Made by a program: the position numbers and the translations under genes. The notes below the pieces were generated by a model that saw only the letters and a program-made list of their open reading frames with translations, ran no database searches and was not told the origin of the DNA. A stretch of DNA of 64,000 bases from Acidimicrobiales bacterium (lineage in GTDB: Bacteria > Actinomycetota > Acidimicrobiia > Acidimicrobiales > Aldehydirespiratoraceae), in the NCBI GenBank assembly GCA_040219515.1, contig JAVJSI010000018.1, positions 1-64,000 on the forward strand, in the 5' to 3' direction. Positions 5,953-18,439 of this stretch are shown piece after piece (the stretch's first letter is position 1; each line of letters begins with the position of its first letter).

Positions 5953-6051
5953 GCCACCAACGTAGGGCCGTCGGCAGGAGAACTTTCCCGCGAGCCCTAT
6001 TGTTTGAACTGCTCGAACCGAATGGGTGAGGGTCGAATCCAGGGAGTGCGA

Positions 6052-7311
6052 ATGAACGTCGATCTAGTTGTGGTGGGCCTCGGCTACGTGGGTCTCCCGT
6101 TGGCCCAGGAGGCCACCCGGTCCGGGCTCACGGTCGTGGGCTACGACGTGTCGGCCGAGGCCGTGGACGGTCTCAACAGCGGCACATCACACATCGACGA
6201 CCTGAGCGACGCCGACATCGACGAGATGCGGGCCGCCGGCTTTCGCGCGACCACCGACCCGACGAGCCTCGCGGAGGCCGACGCGATCGTGATCTGCGTG
6301 CCGACGCCGCTGAGCGACGACGGCACCCCCGACCTTCGTGCCATCGAGGGTGCGACGGGCGACATCGGCCGCAACCTCACCGCCGGCACCCTGGTCGTGC
6401 TCGAGTCGACCACCTATCCGGGCACCACCAACGACATCGTCCGCCCCATCCTCGAGGAACTCAGCGGGCTCACGGCCGGCGTCGACTTCCACCTGGCCTT
6501 CTCACCCGAGCGGATCGACCCGGGCAACCCGCAGTTCGGCCTCCGCAACACGCCAAAGGTGGTCGGTGGCTACACCCCGGCCGACACCGAGGTCGCCGCC
6601 GCGTTCTACGGGCGCATCGTCGACGAGGTCGTCCGCACCGTCGGCACCCGTGAGGCCGAGATGGCGAAGCTGCTCGAGAACACCTATCGCCACGTCAACA
6701 TCGCGCTGATGAACGAGATGGCCATCTTCGCCCACGAGCTCGACATCGACCTCTGGTCGGTCATCGACGCGGCGAAGACCAAGCCGTTCGGTTTCCAGGC
6801 CTTCTATCCCGGCCCCGGTGTCGGTGGCCACTGCATCCCGATCGACCCGAACTATCTGTCCTACGCCGTGCGCTCGCTCGGCTACCAGTTCCGCTTCGTC
6901 GAGCTGGCCCAGGACGTGTCCTCCCGCATGCCCGCCTATGTGGCGACACGGGCCCAGTCACTGCTGAACGAGCAACGACTGTCGGTCAACGGGGCCAAGA
7001 TCCTTCTGCTCGGTGTGACCTACAAGGCCGACATCTCCGACGAGCGCGAGACCCCCGCTCGTCCCCTCGCCGCCCGTCTTCTCGAGCTCGGCGCCGACCT
7101 CTCGTTCTACGACCCGCACGTGTCCAGGTTCATCGTCGGCGAGCACGCCGTCACCCAGGCGACCGACCTCGCCGCGGCGATGAAGGACGCCGATCTGGTG
7201 ATCCTGCTCCAGGCCCACAGCGCCGTGATGGACGAGGCCGACTTCGACTCCGCCACGTCGATCCTCGACACCCGCGGAAAGCTCCGCGGCGCCAACGTCG
7301 ACCGTCTCTGA
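6052..7311 (+). CDS. nucleotide-sugar 6-dehydrogenase (UDP-ManNAc/UDP-Glc dehydrogenase family)
   Basis: NAD-dependent four-electron oxidation of a UDP-sugar C6 alcohol to the uronate. 419 residues from ATG 6052; an upstream in-frame ATG at 6004 has no family sequence. Rossmann motif VGLGYVG (residues 8-14), STTYPG/SPERIDPG in the NAD domain, catalytic Cys261 in GVGGHCIPIDP, and a C-terminal domain with GVTYKADISDERETPA. The N-terminal sequence resembles the WecC/TviB branch, and wecB is 2.5 kb away. UDP-ManNAcA synthesis is therefore plausible, but UDP-glucose cannot be excluded. Confidence 0.93.
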   Translation: MNVDLVVVGLGYVGLPLAQEATRSGLTVVGYDVSAEAVDGLNSGTSHIDDLSDADIDEMRAAGFRATTDPTSLAEADAIVICVPTPLSDDGTPDLRAIEGATGDIGRNLTAGTLVVLESTTYPGTTNDIVRPILEELSGLTAGVDFHLAFSPERIDPGNPQFGLRNTPKVVGGYTPADTEVAAAFYGRIVDEVVRTVGTREAEMAKLLENTYRHVNIALMNEMAIFAHELDIDLWSVIDAAKTKPFGFQAFYPGPGVGGHCIPIDPNYLSYAVRSLGYQFRFVELAQDVSSRMPAYVATRAQSLLNEQRLSVNGAKILLLGVTYKADISDERETPARPLAARLLELGADLSFYDPHVSRFIVGEHAVTQATDLAAAMKDADLVILLQAHSAVMDEADFDSATSILDTRGKLRGANVDRL

Positions 7312-8844: not shown

Positions 8845-9864
8845 ATGAAGTCCCGGATCTGGCTCGTGCTCGTGCTACTCGGCGCGGCCTGTGCCGCGCC
8901 CGAACCACCGGATGAGTGGTCGGTCGAACGCCTCACCCCGCCACCCGAGGAGACCGCCGAGCCGGTCGGCGTGTGCGACGACATCCGGGAACTGGCCACT
9001 GGTTCCCACGCGGACGAGACCGAGCTCGACGGAACCCTTGCCGCGCTCGCCCGTATCGCCGCCACGACCGGGGCCACGTCGGCGCTCCCGCTGCTGAGCG
9101 ACATCGGTGATCTCGGTACCGCAACCACGACGTCGAGCGGTGAGCTCCTGTCGAACGGCGAAGTCGCCGTCCTCCGCCACGACCTGCTGCTGACGGCGGG
9201 CCGCGCCATCGACGATGCCACGGCAACGGCGTGCGGTATCCCCGCGTTCAGCGCGCTCTACGCGACCTCCGGCTTCCCCGAGTGCCACTTCGAGATGGAG
9301 ATCCCGATTGCGGCGTACGTCGCGCCGGCGGCGGAGACCCGCTGCACGATGGAGGGACGGCCCACGTTTCTTCCGTGTTGGAGCGACGACGGCGATCATC
9401 TCGCCGTCGACTGTGTGACCGGCAAGGTCGTCCAGGCGGTCGACGATCGATGGTCCACCGCCGGCGATCCTCGAACGATCGAGATCGATCGGAGCGCCAC
9501 AATCGATCCCGATGCTCCCGACATCGTGGCCCTCAACCCTGCGCCCGAATGCGCCGACCTGGCCACGCTCTTCCGGACCGACGCGGCGGCGAGCGCGGAT
9601 CTCGAACGGCTCCCCGCCTCCACGGCATCGCTCAGCATCGACATTCGCAACCAGGTCGCGGCCTTCATCGCTGCGGCGGCCGATCCACCGAGTCTCGATG
9701 AGTTCGAGGCCTTGGTCTTCGAACTCGACCAGTCGACCGCGGCGGCATGCGGACTGCCCCTCGTGAGCGCCTGGGCCACGCTGACCGACGATGCCGCCGT
9801 GCTCCCGTGCTGGACCGAGACCGGGCTCCCGTACCCGGCCTTCGAGGTCATCGACTGCGCCTGA
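8845..9864 (+). CDS. predicted lipoprotein with a duplicated Cys-rich module
   Basis: 339 residues starting at ATG 8845 with a lipobox (LLGAAC, Cys16). The mature part appears to be two copies of one module. Module A (about 44-190) and module B (about 236-338) each begin with an isolated Cys. Each then shows ACG(I/L)P (129-133 and 301-305), LPCW (176-179 and 320-323) and a closing (V/I)DC (188-190 and 336-338). The matched cysteines suggest disulfides in an extracytoplasmic fold. I recognise no family. It ends one base from the convergent wecB stop. Confidence 0.8.
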   Translation: MKSRIWLVLVLLGAACAAPEPPDEWSVERLTPPPEETAEPVGVCDDIRELATGSHADETELDGTLAALARIAATTGATSALPLLSDIGDLGTATTTSSGELLSNGEVAVLRHDLLLTAGRAIDDATATACGIPAFSALYATSGFPECHFEMEIPIAAYVAPAAETRCTMEGRPTFLPCWSDDGDHLAVDCVTGKVVQAVDDRWSTAGDPRTIEIDRSATIDPDAPDIVALNPAPECADLATLFRTDAAASADLERLPASTASLSIDIRNQVAAFIAAAADPPSLDEFEALVFELDQSTAAACGLPLVSAWATLTDDAAVLPCWTETGLPYPAFEVIDCA

Positions 9865-9865
9865 C

Positions 9866-10975
9866 TCAGGCCGTCGGGACGAGGTCGGTGGGTCGTGAGC
9901 GATCGGCCAGGGGTTCGGCCAGCAAGACGTCGATGATGCGTTCAGCCGCCGCTCCGTCCCAGAGTTCGGGACGGGAGTACTCGCCGTCGAAGGCGAGCGC
10001 CTCGGCCGCCGCCGCGACGATCATGTCCGGATCGGTGCCCACGACGCGGTTCGACCCGTCCGTGACGGTGATCGGACGTTCCGTGTTCTCCCGAAGCGTG
10101 AGGCAGGGAACGCCGAGCATCGTGGTTTCCTCCTGCACGCCGCCCGAGTCGGTGAGAACGAGTCGAGCTTCAGCTTGGAGCGCGATGAAATCCAGATAGC
10201 CGGCCGGCTCGATGAGCCGGATCTGCGGGTGGAGCAAGAATCGTTCGAGCATCGGCCTGGTACGCGGGTGCAGAGGGAAGACCAACGGCAGATCGGCCGC
10301 CACCGTGTTGAGCGCGTCGACGATCGGCCCGAACACCTCGGCGTGATCGACGTTGGATGGACGATGCATCGTCACCAGCCCGTAGGCCCCGGGCTCGACC
10401 CCGATCTCTGAGGTGATTCCGCGCTCGCGGGCCCTGTCGAGATTGGCGAGCAACGTGTCGACCATCACGTTGCCGACGAGATGGATCTGGTCCTCCCGGT
10501 AGCCCTCGGCGCGGAGGTTGTCCACACCGTCGGGTGATGGCGCGAAGAGGAAGTCGCTCAACCGGTCGGTGACGACCCGATTGATTTCCTCGGGCATCCC
10601 CCAGTCGCGGCTGCGGAGGCCGGCTTCGACATGGGCCACGTGGACGCCGAACTTTGCAGCCACAAGGCTGCAGGCAACGGTGCTGTTGACATCGCCGACC
10701 ACGGTGAGGATGTCGACGTCACGGTCCGCGATGACCTTCTCGAACGCGACCATCACGCCCGCAGTCTGCTCAGCCTGCGTGCCCGAGCCGACGCCGAGAT
10801 TGATGTCGGGGGGCCGAATCCCCAGATCGTCGAAGAAGACGTCGCTCATCTTGTGGTCGTAGTGCTGACCGCTGTGAACCAGCGTGACCTCGATGCCGCG
10901 CTGTTCTGCGGCCCACAACACCGGGGCGACCTTCATGAAGTTGGGTCGCGCGCCGGCGACGAGGACCATGTGCAT
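9866..10975 (-). CDS. wecB: UDP-N-acetylglucosamine 2-epimerase (non-hydrolysing)
   Basis: Interconverts UDP-GlcNAc and UDP-ManNAc. 369 residues, normal length. Family motifs in order: GARPNFMK near the N terminus, VHSGQHYDHKM, GDVNSTVA, HVEAGLRS, PEEINRVVTD, VTMHRPSNVD, FPLHPRTR and DSGGVQEET. It starts the surface-sugar region and pairs functionally with the nucleotide-sugar dehydrogenase at 6052 for ManNAcA, although the two are not co-transcribed. Confidence 0.96.
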   Translation of the reverse strand: MHMVLVAGARPNFMKVAPVLWAAEQRGIEVTLVHSGQHYDHKMSDVFFDDLGIRPPDINLGVGSGTQAEQTAGVMVAFEKVIADRDVDILTVVGDVNSTVACSLVAAKFGVHVAHVEAGLRSRDWGMPEEINRVVTDRLSDFLFAPSPDGVDNLRAEGYREDQIHLVGNVMVDTLLANLDRARERGITSEIGVEPGAYGLVTMHRPSNVDHAEVFGPIVDALNTVAADLPLVFPLHPRTRPMLERFLLHPQIRLIEPAGYLDFIALQAEARLVLTDSGGVQEETTMLGVPCLTLRENTERPITVTDGSNRVVGTDPDMIVAAAAEALAFDGEYSRPELWDGAAAERIIDVLLAEPLADRSRPTDLVPTA

Positions 10976-11212
10976 CCGGCGAGCCTAATTAGAGGGGCCG
11001 GGGAACCGAACGACGGCGTAGGTACTGAACGCACGGTGGGCGTACTCGGCGAGCAGGCCGACCACCGCGCCGACGACGGCGACGTCCCCGTCGTCAAGCC
11101 CTCGGCCACCATCCACTCGACCGCCGCTGCGTCGCACGCACCCGTTCGTGGAGAAGCCCGTCAGCGGACTCGCGCCCCTGAGAGGGTTCCTCACGCCGGT
11201 ACTCTCTCCGGG
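10976..11212. other. divergent intergenic region with a possible 3' gene remnant
   Basis: This 237-bp gap must carry the promoters for wecB (minus) and the acyltransferase (plus). On the minus strand, the end of an open frame (stop at 10985) reads like a natural protein tail (VVGLLAEYAHRAFSTYAVV...) but has no recognisable 5' part. It could be the remnant of a gene once upstream of wecB. No clear -35/-10 pair was identified. Confidence 0.25.
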
Positions 11213-13246
11213 ATGTCGTCGACGCAGCACACCGTGCCCAGACCTGCAAGTGCCGGTTACCGCGGCGACATCGATGGTCTGCGGGCACTCTCGATCATCG
11301 CCGTCGTGCTCTTTCACGCAGGGGTCTCCCGCGTTGCCGGCGGCTATGTCGGTGTCGATGTCTTCTTCGTGATCTCGGGATTCCTCATCACGGGACTGCT
11401 CGTTCGTGAGATCGAGCGCTCCGGGCGCGTCTCGATGCGTGAGTTCTATGCCCGACGAATCCGACGCCTCCTTCCGCTGTCATTCTTCACGATCATCGCG
11501 ACGCTCGCCGGTGGCATGTGGCTACTTCCACCGGTCGCCCGTGAGAGCCTCGTCGACGACGCGCGGGCTGCCTCGCTCTATGTCGCCAACTGGCGCTATG
11601 CCTCAAAGGCCACCGCCTACTCCGACACCGAAGTCACCGACAGCCTGCTCGTCCACTTCTGGTCGCTGGCCATCGAGGAGCAGTTCTACGTTCTCTGGCC
11701 CCTGCTGATCATCGCCGGCCTCGGTGTTGCTCGACTTCTGAAGCAACCGACCCGACGGGTACTCGGTGTCCTGCTCGGCACGCTCGGGGTGGCGTCGTTC
11801 GCCTTCTCCGTCGTCATCACCAACAACGAAGGCGTGGGGGCCTACTACTTGACCCACACCCGTCTCTGGGAGATGGCCATGGGCGCCGGGATGGCGCTGA
11901 CGATGCACAAGCTCCCAACCCTTTCGCGGTGGGGAGTCGAGGCACTCGGCGTCGGCGGCCTCGTCCTCATCGCCTATGCCGCGATGACGTTCGACGAGTC
12001 GACGCCGTTCCCCGGCTCGATGGCACTGCTCCCGGTCGTCGGGTGTGTGGCCGTCCTCGTTGCAGGATCCCAGGGTGGCGGCTCCGTCGCTCGGGTCTTG
12101 GCGACCGCCCCACTCCGACTCATCGGTCGGCTCTCGTACGCGTGGTACCTGGTTCACTGGCCCTCGATCGGCCTTCTCCTCTTGGCGCGCGAACGATTCG
12201 ACTGGGGGCTCGGAGTCGGGGCCACGACTGCATTCGCCGTGGCCGCTTCGTTCGGGATCGCCTTCGTTCTCCATCACGCGATCGAGAACCCGGTCCGTCA
12301 CGCCCACCTGCTCCGCGATCGATCAGCGCCGAACTTCGCGATGGGGGCTGCCCTCACCGTGGCGCCCCTGTTGTTCGGTGCCCTGCTCATCTCCAGCGTC
12401 GACCGTGGTGATGGCCCCGTGATCGTTGCATCCGAGAGCGGTGCCATCGAACTGGTCCAGACGCCCGCGGAAGCCCTCGACGACGACACTCTGGCGAGCG
12501 ACAGTTGCCATGCCGACATCGCGGACACGACGCCCGCCGACGGTTGTGTCTTCGGTGACACTGAGGGTGAGCGCACCATCGTGATCCTCGGTGACAGTCA
12601 CGCGCGACAGTGGGTGGATGCGATCGACGAAATCGGCCGTGAGGAGGGTTGGCGGGTCCATGCCTGGACGAAGTCGGGCTGCTCGATCATCGACGCGTCC
12701 ATCTATCTCGACTCCCAGGAGCGCCCGTATCGGGAGTGTGACGAATGGCGAGAGGCGGTCACGGATCAGGTAGCTGAGATCGGCCATGTCGACCTCGTCG
12801 TCCTCGCCCGCGCGGCCGGCTACCGGAACCAGATCATGAACGGCGGCGACGTCCTTGCGGTCGAGGAGTCACCCGAGCACTGGCATCAGGCGTTCTCTCG
12901 CACTGCGGAGACCTTCACATCGCTCGCCGATGACGTCGTGCTGCTCGCTGACACCCCCTGGCCGGGATTCTCTCCCCCCGAGTGCCTCTCGGAACGCCCG
13001 GCGGACCTCACCGAATGCTCGTTCCCGCTCCAGCCCGCGATCCGGGATCTGGCGCTCCTCGAGGTCGAGCGACCGATCGCCGACGCGTTCGGGGTCCGCA
13101 TCGTCGACCCGGTTCCCCTGACGTGTCCCGACGACCCCTGTGCTGTCGTCACCGACGACGGCATCATCACGTACCGCGATTCCCATCACCTGACGCGGAC
13201 GTTCACGATGTCACTGCTCGAGGACATCAGCGCGTGGCTCCTCTGA
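11213..13246 (+). CDS. OafA-type acyltransferase 3 with C-terminal SGNH domain
   Basis: 677 residues from ATG 11213; the longer open frame upstream is antisense to wecB. The N-terminal half is an acyltransferase-3 membrane domain: YRGDIDGLRALSIIAVVLFH with the catalytic-type His, GGYVGVDVFFVISGFLIT, YARRIRRLLPL and FWSLAIEEQFY, then about ten TM helices. The C-terminal part (about 425-677) is an SGNH hydrolase-like domain with GDSH (S462) and a late DSHH. Such proteins O-acetylate cell-surface polysaccharides, passing acyl groups across the membrane to the outer SGNH domain. Confidence 0.93.
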   Translation: MSSTQHTVPRPASAGYRGDIDGLRALSIIAVVLFHAGVSRVAGGYVGVDVFFVISGFLITGLLVREIERSGRVSMREFYARRIRRLLPLSFFTIIATLAGGMWLLPPVARESLVDDARAASLYVANWRYASKATAYSDTEVTDSLLVHFWSLAIEEQFYVLWPLLIIAGLGVARLLKQPTRRVLGVLLGTLGVASFAFSVVITNNEGVGAYYLTHTRLWEMAMGAGMALTMHKLPTLSRWGVEALGVGGLVLIAYAAMTFDESTPFPGSMALLPVVGCVAVLVAGSQGGGSVARVLATAPLRLIGRLSYAWYLVHWPSIGLLLLARERFDWGLGVGATTAFAVAASFGIAFVLHHAIENPVRHAHLLRDRSAPNFAMGAALTVAPLLFGALLISSVDRGDGPVIVASESGAIELVQTPAEALDDDTLASDSCHADIADTTPADGCVFGDTEGERTIVILGDSHARQWVDAIDEIGREEGWRVHAWTKSGCSIIDASIYLDSQERPYRECDEWREAVTDQVAEIGHVDLVVLARAAGYRNQIMNGGDVLAVEESPEHWHQAFSRTAETFTSLADDVVLLADTPWPGFSPPECLSERPADLTECSFPLQPAIRDLALLEVERPIADAFGVRIVDPVPLTCPDDPCAVVTDDGIITYRDSHHLTRTFTMSLLEDISAWLL

Positions 13247-13264: not shown

Positions 13265-16200
13265 CTAGAGGAAGATCTCGTCCTCGCGGAAGCCGGCGCC
13301 GACCGGTGCGCACGCCTTCAGGAACTCGTCGTCTTCGATCGCCCAGGTGTGCGACGCGACGTTCGCGTGTCGAACCTGGCAGAAGTTGAATCGATCGGCG
13401 CTGAAGACGGTGAGTCCCCGAGCGCGAACGGCGTTCAAGAACCGTGAATCAGTGCCCTGAGGAACCGCCTCGAACGCGATGTCGCCGACCTGGGAGCGGT
13501 CGGCAACGATCGTGCCGCCGACAACCCTCGGGGCGTCCCGGAACTCTCGGCCCGGGAACCGGAGCACCGTCCGATCCTGCCCCTCGAGGTAGGCGTAGTA
13601 GCACTGCTTGCCGGCGACCGCAGCGCCCGTGTAGGGGAACGTCATCATCACGTCGGCGAGGTACTCGTCGCCGTAGTGATCGTCATCGTCGAACTTTGCG
13701 AAGTACTCACCCGTCGCCACACCGAGCGCCTCGTTGAGACAATCGCCCAGCGTGGCTGCTTCATCGATGCGCAGGACCTTGGCTCCGGGCACGCGAGACT
13801 CGACCGACGCGAGCACGCTCTCGTCGAACGACGCCGAGTTCGCCACGAAGACGAACTCGGTGTCCGTGTAGGTCTGGCGAAGGTAGCTGTCGAGCGCGTG
13901 ATCGAGCATCTCAGGCCGATTGCTGACGCAGATGACCGAGACGCGGCGTCGAGGCCGACTGGCCGGGGTGCCGATCATCGACAGCATCGCGTCCACGCGC
14001 TGCTCATAGCTGTGTTCCCGGTGAACCAGGCGATATCCGAGGTGCGAGTGACGATCACGGGCAACCGGCTCGTTCAGCACCCAGTCGACATACTCGCCCG
14101 TTTGTTCACGGCTCTCCGTGACGAGCACGGTGTCGCCGAGAAGCTCGTCGATCCCCTGCGCTCGCGTCGAGATCACCGGCGTGCCGCAGGCAAGAAGCTC
14201 GAACACTCGTCGGCTGAACATGGTCGGCGAGGTCTGCACGCTGTTGACGTTCAGGAACGCGGCGTAGCGGCGGTAGGCGTTTCCCATCTCGGAATAGGGA
14301 AGGCTTCCGACGACGGCTGACCTGAAGGGATCGGGGAAACCGAGCCTTTCGGCGTCGGGACCGCCGGCGTACCGGTCGTAGATGTCGAGGGCGCCGCGTT
14401 CGAGCGGAGGGCCCAGCAAGATGTCGAAGTCACTGCCCCGCTGCGCGTACTTGTCGCCTCGCCAGCTTCCCGCGAAGCACACGCGGCCGGCCACGTCGCG
14501 CCCACGGCCGATGGGATTGTGCAGTCGAGGCTGGGCGGCAAACGCCATCGCTGCCACCCGGTCGTGGCCGAGAGCCGACTTGTAGTCGTCGACGACATCG
14601 AGATCGGTGGTGAGCACCGCGTCGAACGCTCGGGTGGCGGGCAGGAACACGTCGAAGGAGACCGGATCCTCCTTGTTCCAGAAGACCGACGGGATGCCGG
14701 CGGAACGTGCGGCCTCGAGCATCTCCTTGAGATCCTCGCCGTTCTTCTCGAACTTGTTGAGCGTGTAGCTCCACGCACCTCCGTTGCCCCTCCAGGCCGA
14801 CTCGACGAAGACGAGACCGGCCCCGTCGAGTTGTGCTCGCCAGCCAGTTCGATCGAGCGGTGTCAGTTCGAACTCCGGGGCGAAGCAATCGTGCGTGAAC
14901 TCATCGAGGATCGACACGACCTTGAGGTCGAGCGCCGGTGGGACCGACGCAGACTCGCTCGGCCCGACCGGTACCGGCTTCGTACGGCGCCGTTGCAGGT
15001 GCCAGAGTTCCCGCGGCAGTTTGGCGACCTTGGCGGGGTTCTGCACGACGTCCAACAACGCAGAACCGAGTCGATACTGCGTGCTGTCGTGCGCCTTCTC
15101 GAGTCGAGCGTTCGTGGTCTTGCGCTCCTGGGCGAGCGACTTCTCCGCCTTCGCCAACTCGGACCGGACGCGCGTGAGTTCTTCCGTCGCCGACGCTGCG
15201 CCCAACAACGCCACCTCGGCGACCGGCACGGGTTCGCTACCCTCTGCTTCGAGTCGGAGCACGAGCCGTCCGGCATGGGCGTCGATGCTCACGGCGCGGC
15301 CCGAATCGGTGATCAGGCCGAGCACCGAGCTCACTCGGTGCGGTTCGCTGTCGCCGGGCAGCACGATCTCCCCGATGCCCTCGGGTGCCAGCGTCGCCAT
15401 GGCCGCTCGCACCTTGTCCTCGGCAATCTCCTCCGATGGCAAGGTCATCCGAAAATGTCGGAGAGCCCCGGACTCGATCGTCTCGGCCTCGAGTCGGTCG
15501 AGATCCGCGAACCCGACTTCGGGTTCGGGCGACACCGTGACCACCGGCGGTGCATCGACCGCACTGGACTTCGCCGGCACCACCGTGCGAACCCTGCCGC
15601 GACGGCGAAGCGCGTTCGACAGTCGCTGCGGAGTCGTGGCAAGACGGACGAGTCGATGCCCGACTCGAAAACTCGTGCTGTTCTCGACAAGTTGCTGACG
15701 CCGTCGAACGGCCGCCGCCTCGGACTTCGCCTCCGCAAGTGAACGAGTCGCTGCGTCGAGCTCCTTCTTCAGCATCGCCGAGCGAGTGCTCTCGTCGGCC
15801 AGTCGGAGCTCCACCCGCCTCGTGTTCTCCTGGCGGGCATCCATCTTCTCCATGAGCAAGGCATTCGTGGCGGCCAGCTTTTCGTTGGCGCCACGGGACT
15901 CGACCAGCCGTCGATCGATACGGAGAGTGTGCGAGGTGAGGAGGTTCAACTCCCCCCGCAGAACACGCAAGTCTGCGAGTTCGACCTGAAGGCGCTCGGC
16001 CGGGTCCGGTGCCGGCTCGGTCCCTCCCGTGTCCGCGTCTGCCGTTGCGTCATCGCGGTCCCAGCCGGGATACCAATCGTCCATGAGGTTCCCGCACTCT
16101 TCGGCAAAAGCCGCGACCTGGTCCTCGGTCCAGTCTTCTGGACCGAACCGGTGGTCGACCTGGTTCGCCGTCTCCGGACCGGTGTCAGGACGCTTCGCTC

Positions 16201-16816
16201 GGGCGTTCATGCGGGGCACGACCCACTCCATCGGCGCGATGTCGAGAAACTCGGCGACGTCGTCCATGCGGTCGGCCATGTCCTCGAGCCGGAGCCGCAT
16301 CACGCGATCGGGATCGAGTGAGGCGAGGTCGCTGCCGATGATCTCGTTCGTCCGCCGCCAGGTCCAACAGACTCGACGGAAGGGCGGCCACTGCGCCCAC
16401 TCGTCCTCGCTCACGTCGTGCAGGCGGTCACCCCGAAGCCGATGTCGCTCCCATGGTGTGTCCTTGGCGCGGTCCGGGTCGAACCAGCCGCGCTGCACGC
16501 CCGACGAAACGACGTCGCGCCCGTCGCGGACCATCCAGATGAATTGCGCGTCCGGGAATACCTCGGCGAGCACCGGCACCGCCAGCGACAGGCGATTCGC
16601 CGACTCGCAATAGCGCCGACCGTCGATCTGGGCGGGCCTGCTCTCTTTCAGGATCTCGCCGAGATCCTCGCCGGGAAGCTCGCCGTAGCGGTAGGAAACG
16701 GTCTCCTCGATCAGTCGCGGGAGGGGTTCATGGAGACACACCAACTCGGGGTGTTGCGAGAGTACGTTCGCGATCGAGCGTGAACCCGATCGCCCGGTAT
16801 TGAGGACGAACAGCAC
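13265..16816 (-). CDS. fusion: sulfotransferase + coiled coils + CgeB-like glycosyltransferase + GT2 glycosyltransferase
   Basis: One uninterrupted 1183-residue frame from GTG 16816. Residues 1-255 are a sulfotransferase domain with the PAPS 5'-phosphosulfate loop TGRSGSRS (7-14) and the 3'-phosphate region VRDGRDVVSSG (96-106). Residues about 265-375 are a coiled coil ending in a FRVGHRLVRL linker; a second coiled coil (about 545-578) ends in the similar YRLGSALLDV linker. Residues about 628-950 resemble CgeB/GT-B glycosyltransferases (FAGSWRGDKY, FSRRVFELLACGTPVIST). Residues 957-1183 are a GT2 domain with KFDDDDHYGD (1041-1050) as metal/nucleotide-binding site. It probably assembles and sulfates a surface glycan exported by the neighbouring Wzm/Wzt pair. 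Confidence 0.9.
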   Translation of the reverse strand: MLFVLNTGRSGSRSIANVLSQHPELVCLHEPLPRLIEETVSYRYGELPGEDLGEILKESRPAQIDGRRYCESANRLSLAVPVLAEVFPDAQFIWMVRDGRDVVSSGVQRGWFDPDRAKDTPWERHRLRGDRLHDVSEDEWAQWPPFRRVCWTWRRTNEIIGSDLASLDPDRVMRLRLEDMADRMDDVAEFLDIAPMEWVVPRMNARAKRPDTGPETANQVDHRFGPEDWTEDQVAAFAEECGNLMDDWYPGWDRDDATADADTGGTEPAPDPAERLQVELADLRVLRGELNLLTSHTLRIDRRLVESRGANEKLAATNALLMEKMDARQENTRRVELRLADESTRSAMLKKELDAATRSLAEAKSEAAAVRRRQQLVENSTSFRVGHRLVRLATTPQRLSNALRRRGRVRTVVPAKSSAVDAPPVVTVSPEPEVGFADLDRLEAETIESGALRHFRMTLPSEEIAEDKVRAAMATLAPEGIGEIVLPGDSEPHRVSSVLGLITDSGRAVSIDAHAGRLVLRLEAEGSEPVPVAEVALLGAASATEELTRVRSELAKAEKSLAQERKTTNARLEKAHDSTQYRLGSALLDVVQNPAKVAKLPRELWHLQRRRTKPVPVGPSESASVPPALDLKVVSILDEFTHDCFAPEFELTPLDRTGWRAQLDGAGLVFVESAWRGNGGAWSYTLNKFEKNGEDLKEMLEAARSAGIPSVFWNKEDPVSFDVFLPATRAFDAVLTTDLDVVDDYKSALGHDRVAAMAFAAQPRLHNPIGRGRDVAGRVCFAGSWRGDKYAQRGSDFDILLGPPLERGALDIYDRYAGGPDAERLGFPDPFRSAVVGSLPYSEMGNAYRRYAAFLNVNSVQTSPTMFSRRVFELLACGTPVISTRAQGIDELLGDTVLVTESREQTGEYVDWVLNEPVARDRHSHLGYRLVHREHSYEQRVDAMLSMIGTPASRPRRRVSVICVSNRPEMLDHALDSYLRQTYTDTEFVFVANSASFDESVLASVESRVPGAKVLRIDEAATLGDCLNEALGVATGEYFAKFDDDDHYGDEYLADVMMTFPYTGAAVAGKQCYYAYLEGQDRTVLRFPGREFRDAPRVVGGTIVADRSQVGDIAFEAVPQGTDSRFLNAVRARGLTVFSADRFNFCQVRHANVASHTWAIEDDEFLKACAPVGAGFREDEIFL

Positions 16817-16877
16817 TGGCTTACACTACCAGTCGCCCTCGGTATCCCTTGCGGGCCGACGATGGGCAACCGAACCT

Positions 16878-17723
16878 ATGACCGAGCAGTTATCAGCCGA
16901 TTTGTCCGAACTTTCGCCTGCGAACCAGGTCGATCCTCTGGGTCTCTATCTCCGCGGAGTATGGCAGCGTCGGGACTACATCCTTCAGGTACCGCTCAAC
17001 GAGCTACGGGTCGAGCAGGCCAACACTCTCCTGGGCAACGCGTGGCTGATCATCAACCCGCTGCTGTCCGTCGCGATCTACTACCTGGTGTTCGGTGTGA
17101 TCCTGGACGCAAGTCGCGGCGTCGACGACTACATCGCGTTCCTGGTCATCGGTGTCTTCACCTTCCTCTTCAGCAACCGAATGATCGTCAACGGAGCCAA
17201 ATCCGTCTCCTCGAGTATCGGCCTGGTTCGAGCGATCCGATTCCCTCGGGCGGTTCTTCCGATCTCGACCGCCGTGGCAAGCATCATTCGATTCGCGCCC
17301 AACTTCTTGGTGATGCTCGTCACCGTCCTCGCCTTCGGCAACTTTCCCGACCTTCGCTGGTTGCTACTGGTCCCGATCTTCCTACTCCAAGTGCTCTTCA
17401 GCGCAGGAGGAAGCTTCTTCGTCGCCCGCCTGAACCATTTGTACGCGGACATGGAGAACACCCTGCCGTTCGTCTTTCGACTGCTCTTCTATCTCTCGGG
17501 CGTGCTCTATTCCGTCGACCGCTTCGTGGATCACGGAGGGTGGCGTGCGGCCTTCGCCCTGAACCCGCTCTATGACTACCTGACCTTGTGGCGCTGGGGG
17601 CTTCTCGGAACACCCGTGGATGGATGGACGGTCCTCGGCGCGGTGTTGTGGGCCATCATCACCCCGATCGCCGGGTTCGCGTTCTTCCGCGCCGGCGAGG
17701 CCGGCTACGGCCGGGCGAGCTGA
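16878..17723 (+). CDS. polysaccharide ABC exporter permease (Wzm/TagG family)
   Basis: 281 residues from ATG 16878. An N-terminal amphipathic region (YLRGVWQRRDYILQVPLNEL) is followed by an ABC-2 type core of six predicted TM helices, including LLGNAWLIINPLLSVAIYYLV and NRMIVNGAKSVSSSIGLVRA. It moves a lipid-linked polysaccharide or teichoic-acid-like polymer across the membrane. Its TGA overlaps the ATG of the ATPase gene (TGATG at 17721-17725). Divergent from the fusion gene with a 61-bp gap. Confidence 0.93.
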   Translation: MTEQLSADLSELSPANQVDPLGLYLRGVWQRRDYILQVPLNELRVEQANTLLGNAWLIINPLLSVAIYYLVFGVILDASRGVDDYIAFLVIGVFTFLFSNRMIVNGAKSVSSSIGLVRAIRFPRAVLPISTAVASIIRFAPNFLVMLVTVLAFGNFPDLRWLLLVPIFLLQVLFSAGGSFFVARLNHLYADMENTLPFVFRLLFYLSGVLYSVDRFVDHGGWRAAFALNPLYDYLTLWRWGLLGTPVDGWTVLGAVLWAIITPIAGFAFFRAGEAGYGRAS

Positions 17724-18439
17724 TGACCGAACTCGCGATCGCATGCCGCAACGTCGAGGTCGAGTACCTCATTCGCGGACGCCAGTCGACGGTGCGGGAC
17801 CGGCTTCGGGGTTCGGTGTCGGCGGGACGGACCATCAAGGCTGTCCGCGGCGTCAACCTCGATGTCACCGTCGGCGAGAGCGTGGGAATCATCGGACCCA
17901 ACGGTTCCGGCAAGAGCACGCTCCTGCGCACCATCGCGGGCCTTCTGCCACCGACGCGAGGCGATGTTCTCGTTCGTTCCATGCCGACCCTGCTGGGTGT
18001 GAGCGCCGTCCTACGCCCACGAATGACCGGCCGGCGGAACATTCAGATCGGTCTGCTGGCCCAGGGCATTCGTGGGGTACAGATCCCGGAACTCGAGAAG
18101 GAGGTCATCGAGTTCAGCGAGCTCGATGAGTTCATCGACTACCCGATGGACACCTACTCCAGCGGCATGCGGGCACGGCTCCACTTCTCCATCGCCACGG
18201 CCGTGACGCCGGAGATTCTGCTGATCGACGAGGCGCTCGCCGTCGGCGATCGGCAGTTCCGCGAAAAGAGCGCCCGCCGCTTCGACCTCCACAAGAAGTC
18301 CGCAGGGACGATCGTCATCGTCAGTCACGTCCTCGGTGAACTCCGACGATCCTGTGACCGCGTCATCTGGCTGGAAAAGGGCGAGATCATCACCGACGGG
18401 CCGACCGACGAGGTTCTCGACCTCTACGAATCGACCTGA
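17723..18439 (+). CDS. polysaccharide ABC exporter ATP-binding protein (Wzt/TagH family)
   Basis: 238 residues. Walker A GPNGSGKST (58-66), a family-typical variant signature YSSGM (145-149) instead of LSGGQ, Walker B LLIDE (166-170) with the switch His in VSHVLGEL. It lacks the C-terminal carbohydrate-binding domain of long Wzt proteins, so substrate recognition should not rely on a Wzt-C domain. Translationally coupled to the permease. The tail overlaps the convergent methyltransferase by 16 bp. Confidence 0.94.
   Translation: MTELAIACRNVEVEYLIRGRQSTVRDRLRGSVSAGRTIKAVRGVNLDVTVGESVGIIGPNGSGKSTLLRTIAGLLPPTRGDVLVRSMPTLLGVSAVLRPRMTGRRNIQIGLLAQGIRGVQIPELEKEVIEFSELDEFIDYPMDTYSSGMRARLHFSIATAVTPEILLIDEALAVGDRQFREKSARRFDLHKKSAGTIVIVSHVLGELRRSCDRVIWLEKGEIITDGPTDEVLDLYEST

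Follow-up and report, generated by a model that had tools for sequence, protein, structure and literature searches.

What does a bacterium make with a single polypeptide that carries a sulfotransferase at one end and two glycosyltransferases at the other, encoded beside a polysaccharide exporter? Such a protein is encoded on the minus strand of a 64,000-nucleotide stretch of DNA (hereafter the window; contig JAVJSI010000018.1, assembly GCA_040219515.1) from an Acidimicrobiales bacterium. The frame at positions 13265-16816 encodes 1183 residues, with a GTG start at 16816 and a stop at 13265. From the N- to the C-terminus, it consists of a 3'-phosphoadenosine-5'-phosphosulfate (PAPS) sulfotransferase, a long helix, a small middle domain, a second helix, a CgeB-like glycosyltransferase (GT) of the GT-B fold and a GT2 domain. 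The frame, its domains, its neighbours and the occurrence of corresponding pieces as separate genes in a sister species are directly observed. The best reading, to which we give a probability of roughly 0.4, is a single-chain machine that assembles a surface glycan for export by an ATP-binding cassette (ABC) transporter and caps it with sulfate. The protein would be a variant of a known glycan assembly machine, and sulfate capping is a specific, testable and unproven proposal.

The frame is a real, intact and unusual fusion, on which Pfam, the AlphaFold models and the GC content by codon position agree. The Pfam matches of the three enzyme domains all exceed the curated cut-offs. The fourth codon upstream of the GTG is an in-frame stop, and the GC content by codon position is consistent in each of the twelve 100-codon blocks (0.73-0.86 at the third position, 0.43-0.51 at the second), so that no frameshift is visible. 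Two AlphaFold models cover residues 1-430 (mean pLDDT 70) and 390-1183 (mean pLDDT 85.8). A preliminary description of this DNA had proposed a single 1183-residue frame with a sulfotransferase, a CgeB-like GT-B and a GT2 domain, which was confirmed on these three grounds; the small α/β domain at residues 437-522 had been missed and the strand not given. It is highly improbable that the four-part frame is an artefact of assembly or annotation. The exact architecture occurs in one genome only and a GTG with a Shine-Dalgarno (SD)-like sequence lies at residue 469, within the middle domain; however, the codon-position GC is coherent across the junction, no SD-like sequence precedes the in-frame starts at residues 412-428, and independent fusions of a sulfotransferase with a coiled coil recur elsewhere, at locus L132 (with a GT4 domain) and at loci L107, L108 and L109 (three species). 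An assembly artefact was judged unlikely from this codon-position GC, start-site context and recurrence. A frame broken in relatives or the lack of a sulfotransferase match, which the preliminary description had named as signs of an artefact, was not encountered.

By profile, PAPS-binding motifs and predicted fold, residues 1-250 are a PAPS sulfotransferase, in agreement with the earlier assignment. Pfam Sulfotransfer_3 (PF13469) matches residues 3-185 (E 2.2e-10, 41.6 bits for a cut-off of 27). The N-terminal model aligns with PAPS sulfotransferases such as TPST2 (3ap3, Z 16.8, root-mean-square deviation (r.m.s.d.) 3.9 Å, 209 residues aligned within residues 1-276). Across 13 aligned sulfotransferase rows, no variation is seen at R9, R97, S105 and W153 and almost none at E30. 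An adenosine-5'-phosphosulfate (APS) kinase is present in the genome for the supply of PAPS. Transfer of sulfate to a glycan by this domain is predicted. At the other end of the protein, Pfam and fold matches agree, and the CgeB-like GT-B and GT2 domains named previously are both upheld. Glyco_trans_1_2 (CgeB type, PF13524) matches residues 827-945 (E 8.4e-20), and residues 631-950 align with GT-B enzymes (PimA 2gej, Z 21.0, r.m.s.d. 4.0, 285 aligned). Glycos_transf_2 (PF00535) matches residues 961-1083 (E 3.5e-10), and residues 956-1150 align with GT-A enzymes (5hea, Z 19.8, r.m.s.d. 2.7, 193 aligned). A sequence search of the PDB returned GT2 relatives only. The top Foldseek matches of the C-terminal model are the heparan polymerases EXTL3 and EXT1-EXT2, which also have GT-B and GT-A domains in tandem; unlike the window protein these are human enzymes, the whole-chain TM-scores are low (0.18-0.28), and the resemblance is one of fold only.

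The sulfotransferase is separated from the glycosyltransferases by two predicted helical stalks, each followed by a linker. The first stalk is broken near residues 307-309 in the AlphaFold model. A crude home-made heptad score was compared with that of residue shuffles (n = 2000); the score of the first stalk was matched by 14 of 2000 shuffles, which supports a coiled coil. A plain periodicity scan peaks at 4.15 residues for the first stalk and 3.55 for the second. The amphipathicity of linker 1 is not above that of shuffles (hydrophobic moment equalled by 49%), and the hydrophobic moment of linker 2 is equalled by 3.2% of shuffles. In the WbdD system, an amphipathic helix that associates with the membrane lies close to the polymerase. 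The two linker motifs, STSFRVG and STQYRLG, are similar by eye and also resemble the YRLG and WWRLG linkers of relatives. The proposal of two coiled coils ending in similar linkers thus stands for the first coil and, by eye, for the linkers; it does not for the heptads of the second coil, which are considered below.

The arrangement recalls Klebsiella O-antigen machines, in which a coiled-coil stalk serves as a ruler and carries a terminator at its distal end; in O12 and O7, the C-terminus of the coiled coil bears the polymerase modules (PMC11231755). The window protein has the same order as the O12 and O7 machines with a sulfotransferase in the place of the terminator, and sulfate capping is for this reason taken as most likely. 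In its order of parts the window protein resembles WbbB of Klebsiella pneumoniae O12, a single polypeptide in which an N-terminal terminator is followed by a coiled coil and a C-terminal pair of GT modules for the polymerisation of a disaccharide repeat, with export by an ABC transporter; the WbbB terminator is a Kdo transferase and a cap-reading module is found on Wzt, whereas the window encodes a sulfotransferase and a short Wzt (PMC11231755). In ORF6 of K. pneumoniae O7, a methyltransferase stands at the N-terminus, where some relatives of the window protein keep one, and the coiled coil and a pair of GT modules come after it; ORF6 differs in being a methyltransferase-kinase with two GT2 modules, instead of a sulfotransferase, a GT-B and GT2 pair and a putative half methyltransferase (PMC11231755).

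In the proposed mechanism, the CgeB-like GT-B and GT2 domains would alternately extend a lipid-linked chain at the membrane, while the RLG linkers and the helical stalks would keep the N-terminal sulfotransferase away from them. A growing end that reaches the sulfotransferase would be sulfated from PAPS, and the terminal sulfate would block extension, so that the chain is capped and its length set. Wzm/Wzt would then export the capped chain. We infer the substrates, the capping and the length control, as well as a methyltransferase origin of the middle domain: the fusion may have arisen when a gene for a sulfotransferase with a coiled coil joined that of a protein whose ancestral methyltransferase terminator had decayed.

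The genes around the fusion are consistent with the production of such a glycan (Table 1). The Wzm/Wzt pair is divergent from the fusion gene, and the Wzm-like permease also matches the NCBIfam model galactan_ABC_perm, below its cut-off. The nucleotide-sugar dehydrogenase passes the general model only, so that the identity of its sugar is deduced; models specific for N-acetylmannosamine (ManNAc) are the best equivalogs, yet below their cut-offs, and the enzyme is probably a UDP-ManNAc dehydrogenase. The glycan probably contains ManNAc or the corresponding uronic acid, ManNAcA. A protein with an acyltransferase and an SGNH domain ends 18 bases from the stop of the fusion gene, and the glycan may be acetylated as well; tblastn gave no match to this protein in the sister-locus stretches. 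That a single chain encoded next to a Wzm/Wzt exporter could carry out both the assembly and the sulfation of a glycan, as put forward earlier, is well supported as a deduction from the intact-looking domains, the adjacent exporter and the sulfotransferases that are separate or differently fused in some related loci.

Table 1. Positions of the parts of the fusion protein and of neighbouring genes in the window
Feature	Position	Strand	Remarks
Sulfotransferase domain	16067..16816	minus	residues 1-250; PAPS 5'-loop TGRSGSRS, 3'-phosphate motif VRDGRDVVSSG
First helical stalk, likely coiled coil	15638..16003	minus	residues 272-393; AlphaFold helices 272-306 and 310-393
Linker 1	15593..15679	minus	residues 380-408; STSFRVGHRLVRL..., basic; overlaps the end of the first helix
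Probable half-methyltransferase remnant	15251..15508	minus	residues 437-522; no half binding S-adenosylmethionine (SAM)
Second helical stalk	15089..15223	minus	residues 532-576; AlphaFold helix
Linker 2	14981..15085	minus	residues 578-612; STQYRLGSALLDVV..., two short helices (AlphaFold)
CgeB-like GT-B domain	13964..14932	minus	residues 629-951; Pfam Glyco_trans_1_2, PimA fold match
GT2 (GT-A) domain	13268..13951	minus	residues 956-1183; DDDD motif; Pfam, 5hea fold match
Wzm-like ABC-2 permease	16863..17723	plus	Pfam ABC2_membrane 2.4e-10; start chosen, listed open reading frame 16800-17723
Wzt-like ABC ATPase, short form	17720..18439	plus	Pfam ABC_tran; start chosen, listed open reading frame 17588-18439
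Acyltransferase-SGNH protein (O-acetylation type)	10631-13246		between WecB and the fusion gene
WecB, UDP-GlcNAc 2-epimerase	9866..10975	minus	NCBIfam TIGR00236, 316 bits for a cut-off of 210
Nucleotide-sugar dehydrogenase	6052..7311	plus	TIGR03026 over cut-off; start chosen, listed open reading frame 6004-7311

Relatives were sought in several samples. A whole-protein search of 61 genomes at 1e-10, a cut-off that a weaker sulfotransferase-only match would escape, gave matches to some part in 16 genomes, its own included; besides its own, only G003 matched over residues 396-1183. In a sample of the class, residues 560-1183 were matched in 28 of 395 genomes (1e-30), G185 being the only other one with a match near the full stretch, and residues 1-400 in 4 of 395 (1e-8), the other three within residues 2-243. 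The C-terminal stretch was matched in 11 of 396 genomes of the phylum sample (1e-50). These counts too include the genome of the window. A pattern search for related loci yielded 14 loci from 42 matches, a set from which records very near the window's genome may be missing.

A likely origin of the fusion is suggested by G003, which belongs to the same genus. Its CgeB-GT2 protein (locus L022) aligns to residues 399-1183 at 62%, the homology beginning near the middle domain, where that protein presumably starts. The sulfotransferase of L022 is a separate gene in the same locus, encoding 466 residues with a C-terminal coiled coil (score matched by 10 of 2000 shuffles) and a basic tail. Since the two pieces are separate genes in L022, the junction in the window looks like a real fusion boundary. 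The modules would then be the sulfotransferase with its coiled coil and linker on the one hand, and the half-methyltransferase, helix, linker, CgeB and GT2 domains on the other. The preliminary description had suggested repeated fusion of coiled-coil glycosyltransferase modules; fusion as such is borne out by the two genes of L022, whereas repeated glycosyltransferase modules are not.

The sulfotransferases of related loci are diverse. That of L022 is of another subfamily than that of the window, and those of the window, L022 and L061 have no good mutual blastp match (best E 0.002 over 52 residues); judged by sequence, the three belong to different subfamilies. L061 is the locus of G185, from another family, where nothing but a helical-looking stretch precedes the CgeB and GT2 domains of the protein. 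The sulfotransferase of this locus has a basic tail and a Sel1-like part, and adjoins WecB, Wzt and Wzm; missed by genome-wide searches, it was seen by hmmscan (Sulfotransfer_1, E 1.6e-5) and a home-made profile (E 6.7e-5). In G325 (L131), a 587-residue protein that adjoins WecB and a CgeB protein consists of a sulfotransferase and a helical-looking stretch, whose heptads are not above shuffles (397 of 2000). In G360 (L132:1944-5981), a 1345-residue frame unites two tandem sulfotransferases with a GT4 domain, a WWRLG linker and a coiled coil whose heptad score no shuffle reaches (0 of 2000); the frame adjoins Wzm, Wzt, WecB and a CgeB protein. The L131 sulfotransferase and the second one of L132 resemble that of L022 (40% and 39%), and the first one of L132 is weakly similar to that of the window (24%, E 1e-7). 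A plain 301-residue sulfotransferase adjoins the dehydrogenase in G479 (L125), about 7 kb from CgeB.

The small middle domain is probably the remnant of a methyltransferase, as suggested by profile comparison and predicted fold. Residues 437-522 are modelled as β-α-β-α-β-β, the succession of elements that class I methyltransferases have in their C-terminal half. Over window residues 466-496, the stretches of the window and L022 match a profile built from four of the family's intact methyltransferases; in this comparison of four with two sequences, 0 of 200 column shuffles reach the score, and hhalign gives a probability of 16% (P 0.0015). An intact methyltransferase was excluded, as there is no Pfam match and only half of the fold is predicted. 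The Foldseek and structure-alignment lists for the C-terminal model are filled by GT domains and have no bearing on these residues. Among relatives from actinobacteria and Sinorhizobium, an intact methyltransferase precedes CgeB in Sinorhizobium (L025), G511 (L072) and G720 (L073), with a Pfam GT2 match also in the L025 protein and none in those of L072 and L073. In L074, only positions 53-94 of the 95 of Methyltransf_11 match (20.2 bits for a cut-off of 21.2).

Associated genes were counted over 21 CgeB loci, comprising 17, among them the window and its sister, and 4 from a second set; L028 and the GT2-only matches L004-L021 and L029-L035 are outside the count, except as represented by L027, L117 and L065. 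The flanks are unequal (contigs from 7.4 kb), which makes absences weak. Neighbours were matched by tblastn at 1e-4 or better, with identities down to 31% for WecB and 33% for the dehydrogenase. WecB was found in 16 of the 21 loci, the dehydrogenase in 9, either in 18, and a Wzt-like ATPase in 16, the Wzt match of L123 covering 36 residues where the contig ends. The three loci with a GT2 core and no CgeB (L027, L117, L065) gave no match to WecB or to the dehydrogenase (0/3 each), a tiny sample that suggests CgeB for the role of ManNAc(A) transferase. In six CgeB loci (window, L022, L061, L125, L131 and L132) a sulfotransferase is either fused or encoded no more than 10 kb away, and in three of them (window, L022 and L132) it is accompanied by a heptad-supported coiled coil. 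When genomes were searched with PF13469, 5 of 17 had a match no further than 10 kb from CgeB, with 0.46 expected by random placement; with the window's genome left out, the figures are 4 of 16 and 0.40 (P 8e-4). As random placement ignores the clustering of sugar genes, this shows an association with the sugar island and not with CgeB as such.

When the loci are sorted by the state of the methyltransferase, a sulfotransferase is nearby in 0 of 3 with an intact one (L025, L119, L122), in 3 of 4 with a half or decayed one (window, L022 and L125, not L120, whose protein L069 is classed as decayed only by alignment with L074), and in 3 of 14 with none recognised by a Pfam scan at E 0.001 that left out the second CgeB protein of L126. 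These loci are too few to claim that the methyltransferase was lost where a sulfotransferase was gained.

Several observations weigh against the best reading as a whole. Sulfotransferases of bacterial polysaccharide clusters usually sulfate the repeat. The heptads of the second stalk are within chance, as 314 of 2000 shuffles equal the score. The exact four-part chain was not found outside its own genome in the 61-genome and class samples. In 15 of the 21 CgeB loci there is no sulfotransferase in the stretch examined, and sulfation is therefore not essential to the polymerase. One of the three loci with a GT2 core and no CgeB (L117) has a sulfotransferase-like frame, so that the link may be to the sugar island. 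The methyltransferase call depends on the modelled fold and on a profile score that is weak and comes from two sequences; in a Pfam hmmscan of the middle region, at E up to 10, L022 had no match and the window had only two DUFs, both unrelated, and a profile built from the two relatives in decay, L069 and L074, gave an hhalign probability of 0.3 and HMMER scores near zero against this region. On the export side, the Wzt frame ends with the ATPase domain and has no C-terminal carbohydrate-binding domain. Wzt_C (PF14524) was not found in the window's genome at E 0.001, a search that was positive for 2 of 14 control genomes. In the terminated examples described in PMC11231755, by contrast with the short Wzt of the window, a carbohydrate-binding module of Wzt reads the cap. 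The pyruvate form of O1 has an exporter without such a module, which takes chains with and without pyruvate (PMC11231755, PMC10629545); it is a precedent for a terminal group without a Wzt module. Yet pyruvate sets no length in O1 (PMC11231755, PMC10629545). The window protein may thus work like the coiled-coil terminator-polymerase machines without being classed with them.

The short Wzt leaves a main, serious rival to capping, namely that the same machine sulfates every repeat, or many of them, with the coiled coil as a mere tether. We give this somewhat less credence than capping. Decoration would suit a Wzt without a cap-reading domain, and the two tandem sulfotransferase domains of L132 would fit more than one modified position; an Actinoplanes cluster likewise has two sulfotransferases of different families (PMC13390465). 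It sits less well with the roughly 120 helix residues and the second helix that part the sulfotransferase from the polymerase, an arrangement described for terminators, or with the joining of sulfotransferases of different subfamilies to supported coiled coils in CgeB loci. A further alternative, which we consider unlikely, is that the sulfotransferase acts once, on a lipid-linked primer or adaptor or another acceptor, and that the fusion mainly co-localises it at the membrane assembly site. The linkers may lie at the membrane (the linker 2 helix is amphipathic at the 3% level and linker 1 is basic), and the loci contain several further glycosyltransferases; but nothing points directly to a primer target, and the sulfotransferase is at the stalk end, far from the polymerase domains. 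Sulfate capping remains the likeliest of these readings for the window protein. Extended to the related loci, the proposal becomes more tentative: the window protein and their sulfotransferase-coiled-coil proteins may all be sulfate-cap terminators, which would have replaced a decayed methyltransferase terminator and would need no cap-reading domain on Wzt.

Other known systems share some of these features. In WbdD/WbdA of Escherichia coli O9 and K. pneumoniae O3, as in L022, a terminator-coiled-coil protein is separate from a dual-GT polymerase; these systems differ by a methylphosphate cap and a Wzt with a carbohydrate-binding module (PMC11231755). The teichuronic acid synthetase of Micrococcus luteus, also an actinobacterium, is described as having dual glycosyltransferase activity, and the ManNAcA-Glc polymer is made by a two-enzyme complex (PMC3005890). 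Unlike the window protein it consists of two separate subunits, of about 54 and 52.5 kDa, and the available part of the source mentions no sulfotransferase (PMC3005890). The wbsalmo locus of Aeromonas salmonicida is described as having a sulfotransferase (ORF19) between wzt and a gene for a WbbB-type multi-domain protein, with wecB present; there the sulfotransferase is separate (216 residues) and Wzt has 438 residues (PMC4483657). No such residue figures in the O-antigen structure as the authors report it (PMC4483657).

Termination of ABC-exported glycans is known from methyl, methylphosphate or Kdo groups, which are attached by enzymes borne on coiled-coil rulers, and from the O1 pyruvate, which sets no length (PMC11231755, PMC10629545). 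No sulfotransferase terminator was found in the literature searched, a search that most subscription papers were beyond. If the proposal is true, a sulfotransferase in the terminator place would provide a new cap, and the terminator module would prove exchangeable without loss of the polymerase. The sulfated glycans of actinobacteria would be extended too; for Actinoplanes, a 2026 paper considers sulfated polysaccharides possible (PMC13390465). As one terminal sulfate per chain is easily missed in nuclear magnetic resonance spectra of repeats, the unexplained sulfotransferase of the A. salmonicida O-antigen locus would be worth a second look (PMC4483657). The domains are separable, which opens the capping question to testing in vitro.

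Some further observations were made in the related loci. In Sinorhizobium kostiense DSM 13372, a named strain in which the family could be studied, a CgeB-only protein (L025:7962-8978) adjoins a methyltransferase-CgeB-GT2 protein (9405-12599), and WecB and a sugar dehydrogenase are encoded in the same locus, as is an ABC exporter that by eye is Kps-like. Another sulfotransferase fusion, some 1000 residues long, is present in three species, namely in the window's own genome and two congeners (L107:10348-13323, L108:9468-12554 and L109:3071-6280). In L107, the only one of the three subjected to the heptad test, it has a supported coiled coil; its end is weakly GT2-like, with a Pfam match in L107 only, below the cut-off. 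By eye, Wzt- and Wzm-like genes lie near the L107 fusion and a Wzm-like gene near that of L108. In G072 (L126:11725-13491), a 588-residue Wzt-like ATPase frame continues for about 350 residues past the ATPase match, with an end that is Sel1-like by eye; this end and that of the L061 sulfotransferase are possibly a shared docking module. In an Ilumatobacter metagenome-assembled genome, no sulfotransferase was found within the stretch examined of a CgeB-GT2 locus, which contains, by eye, a polysaccharide pyruvyl transferase (L026:1021-2181), and pyruvate could be the end group there.

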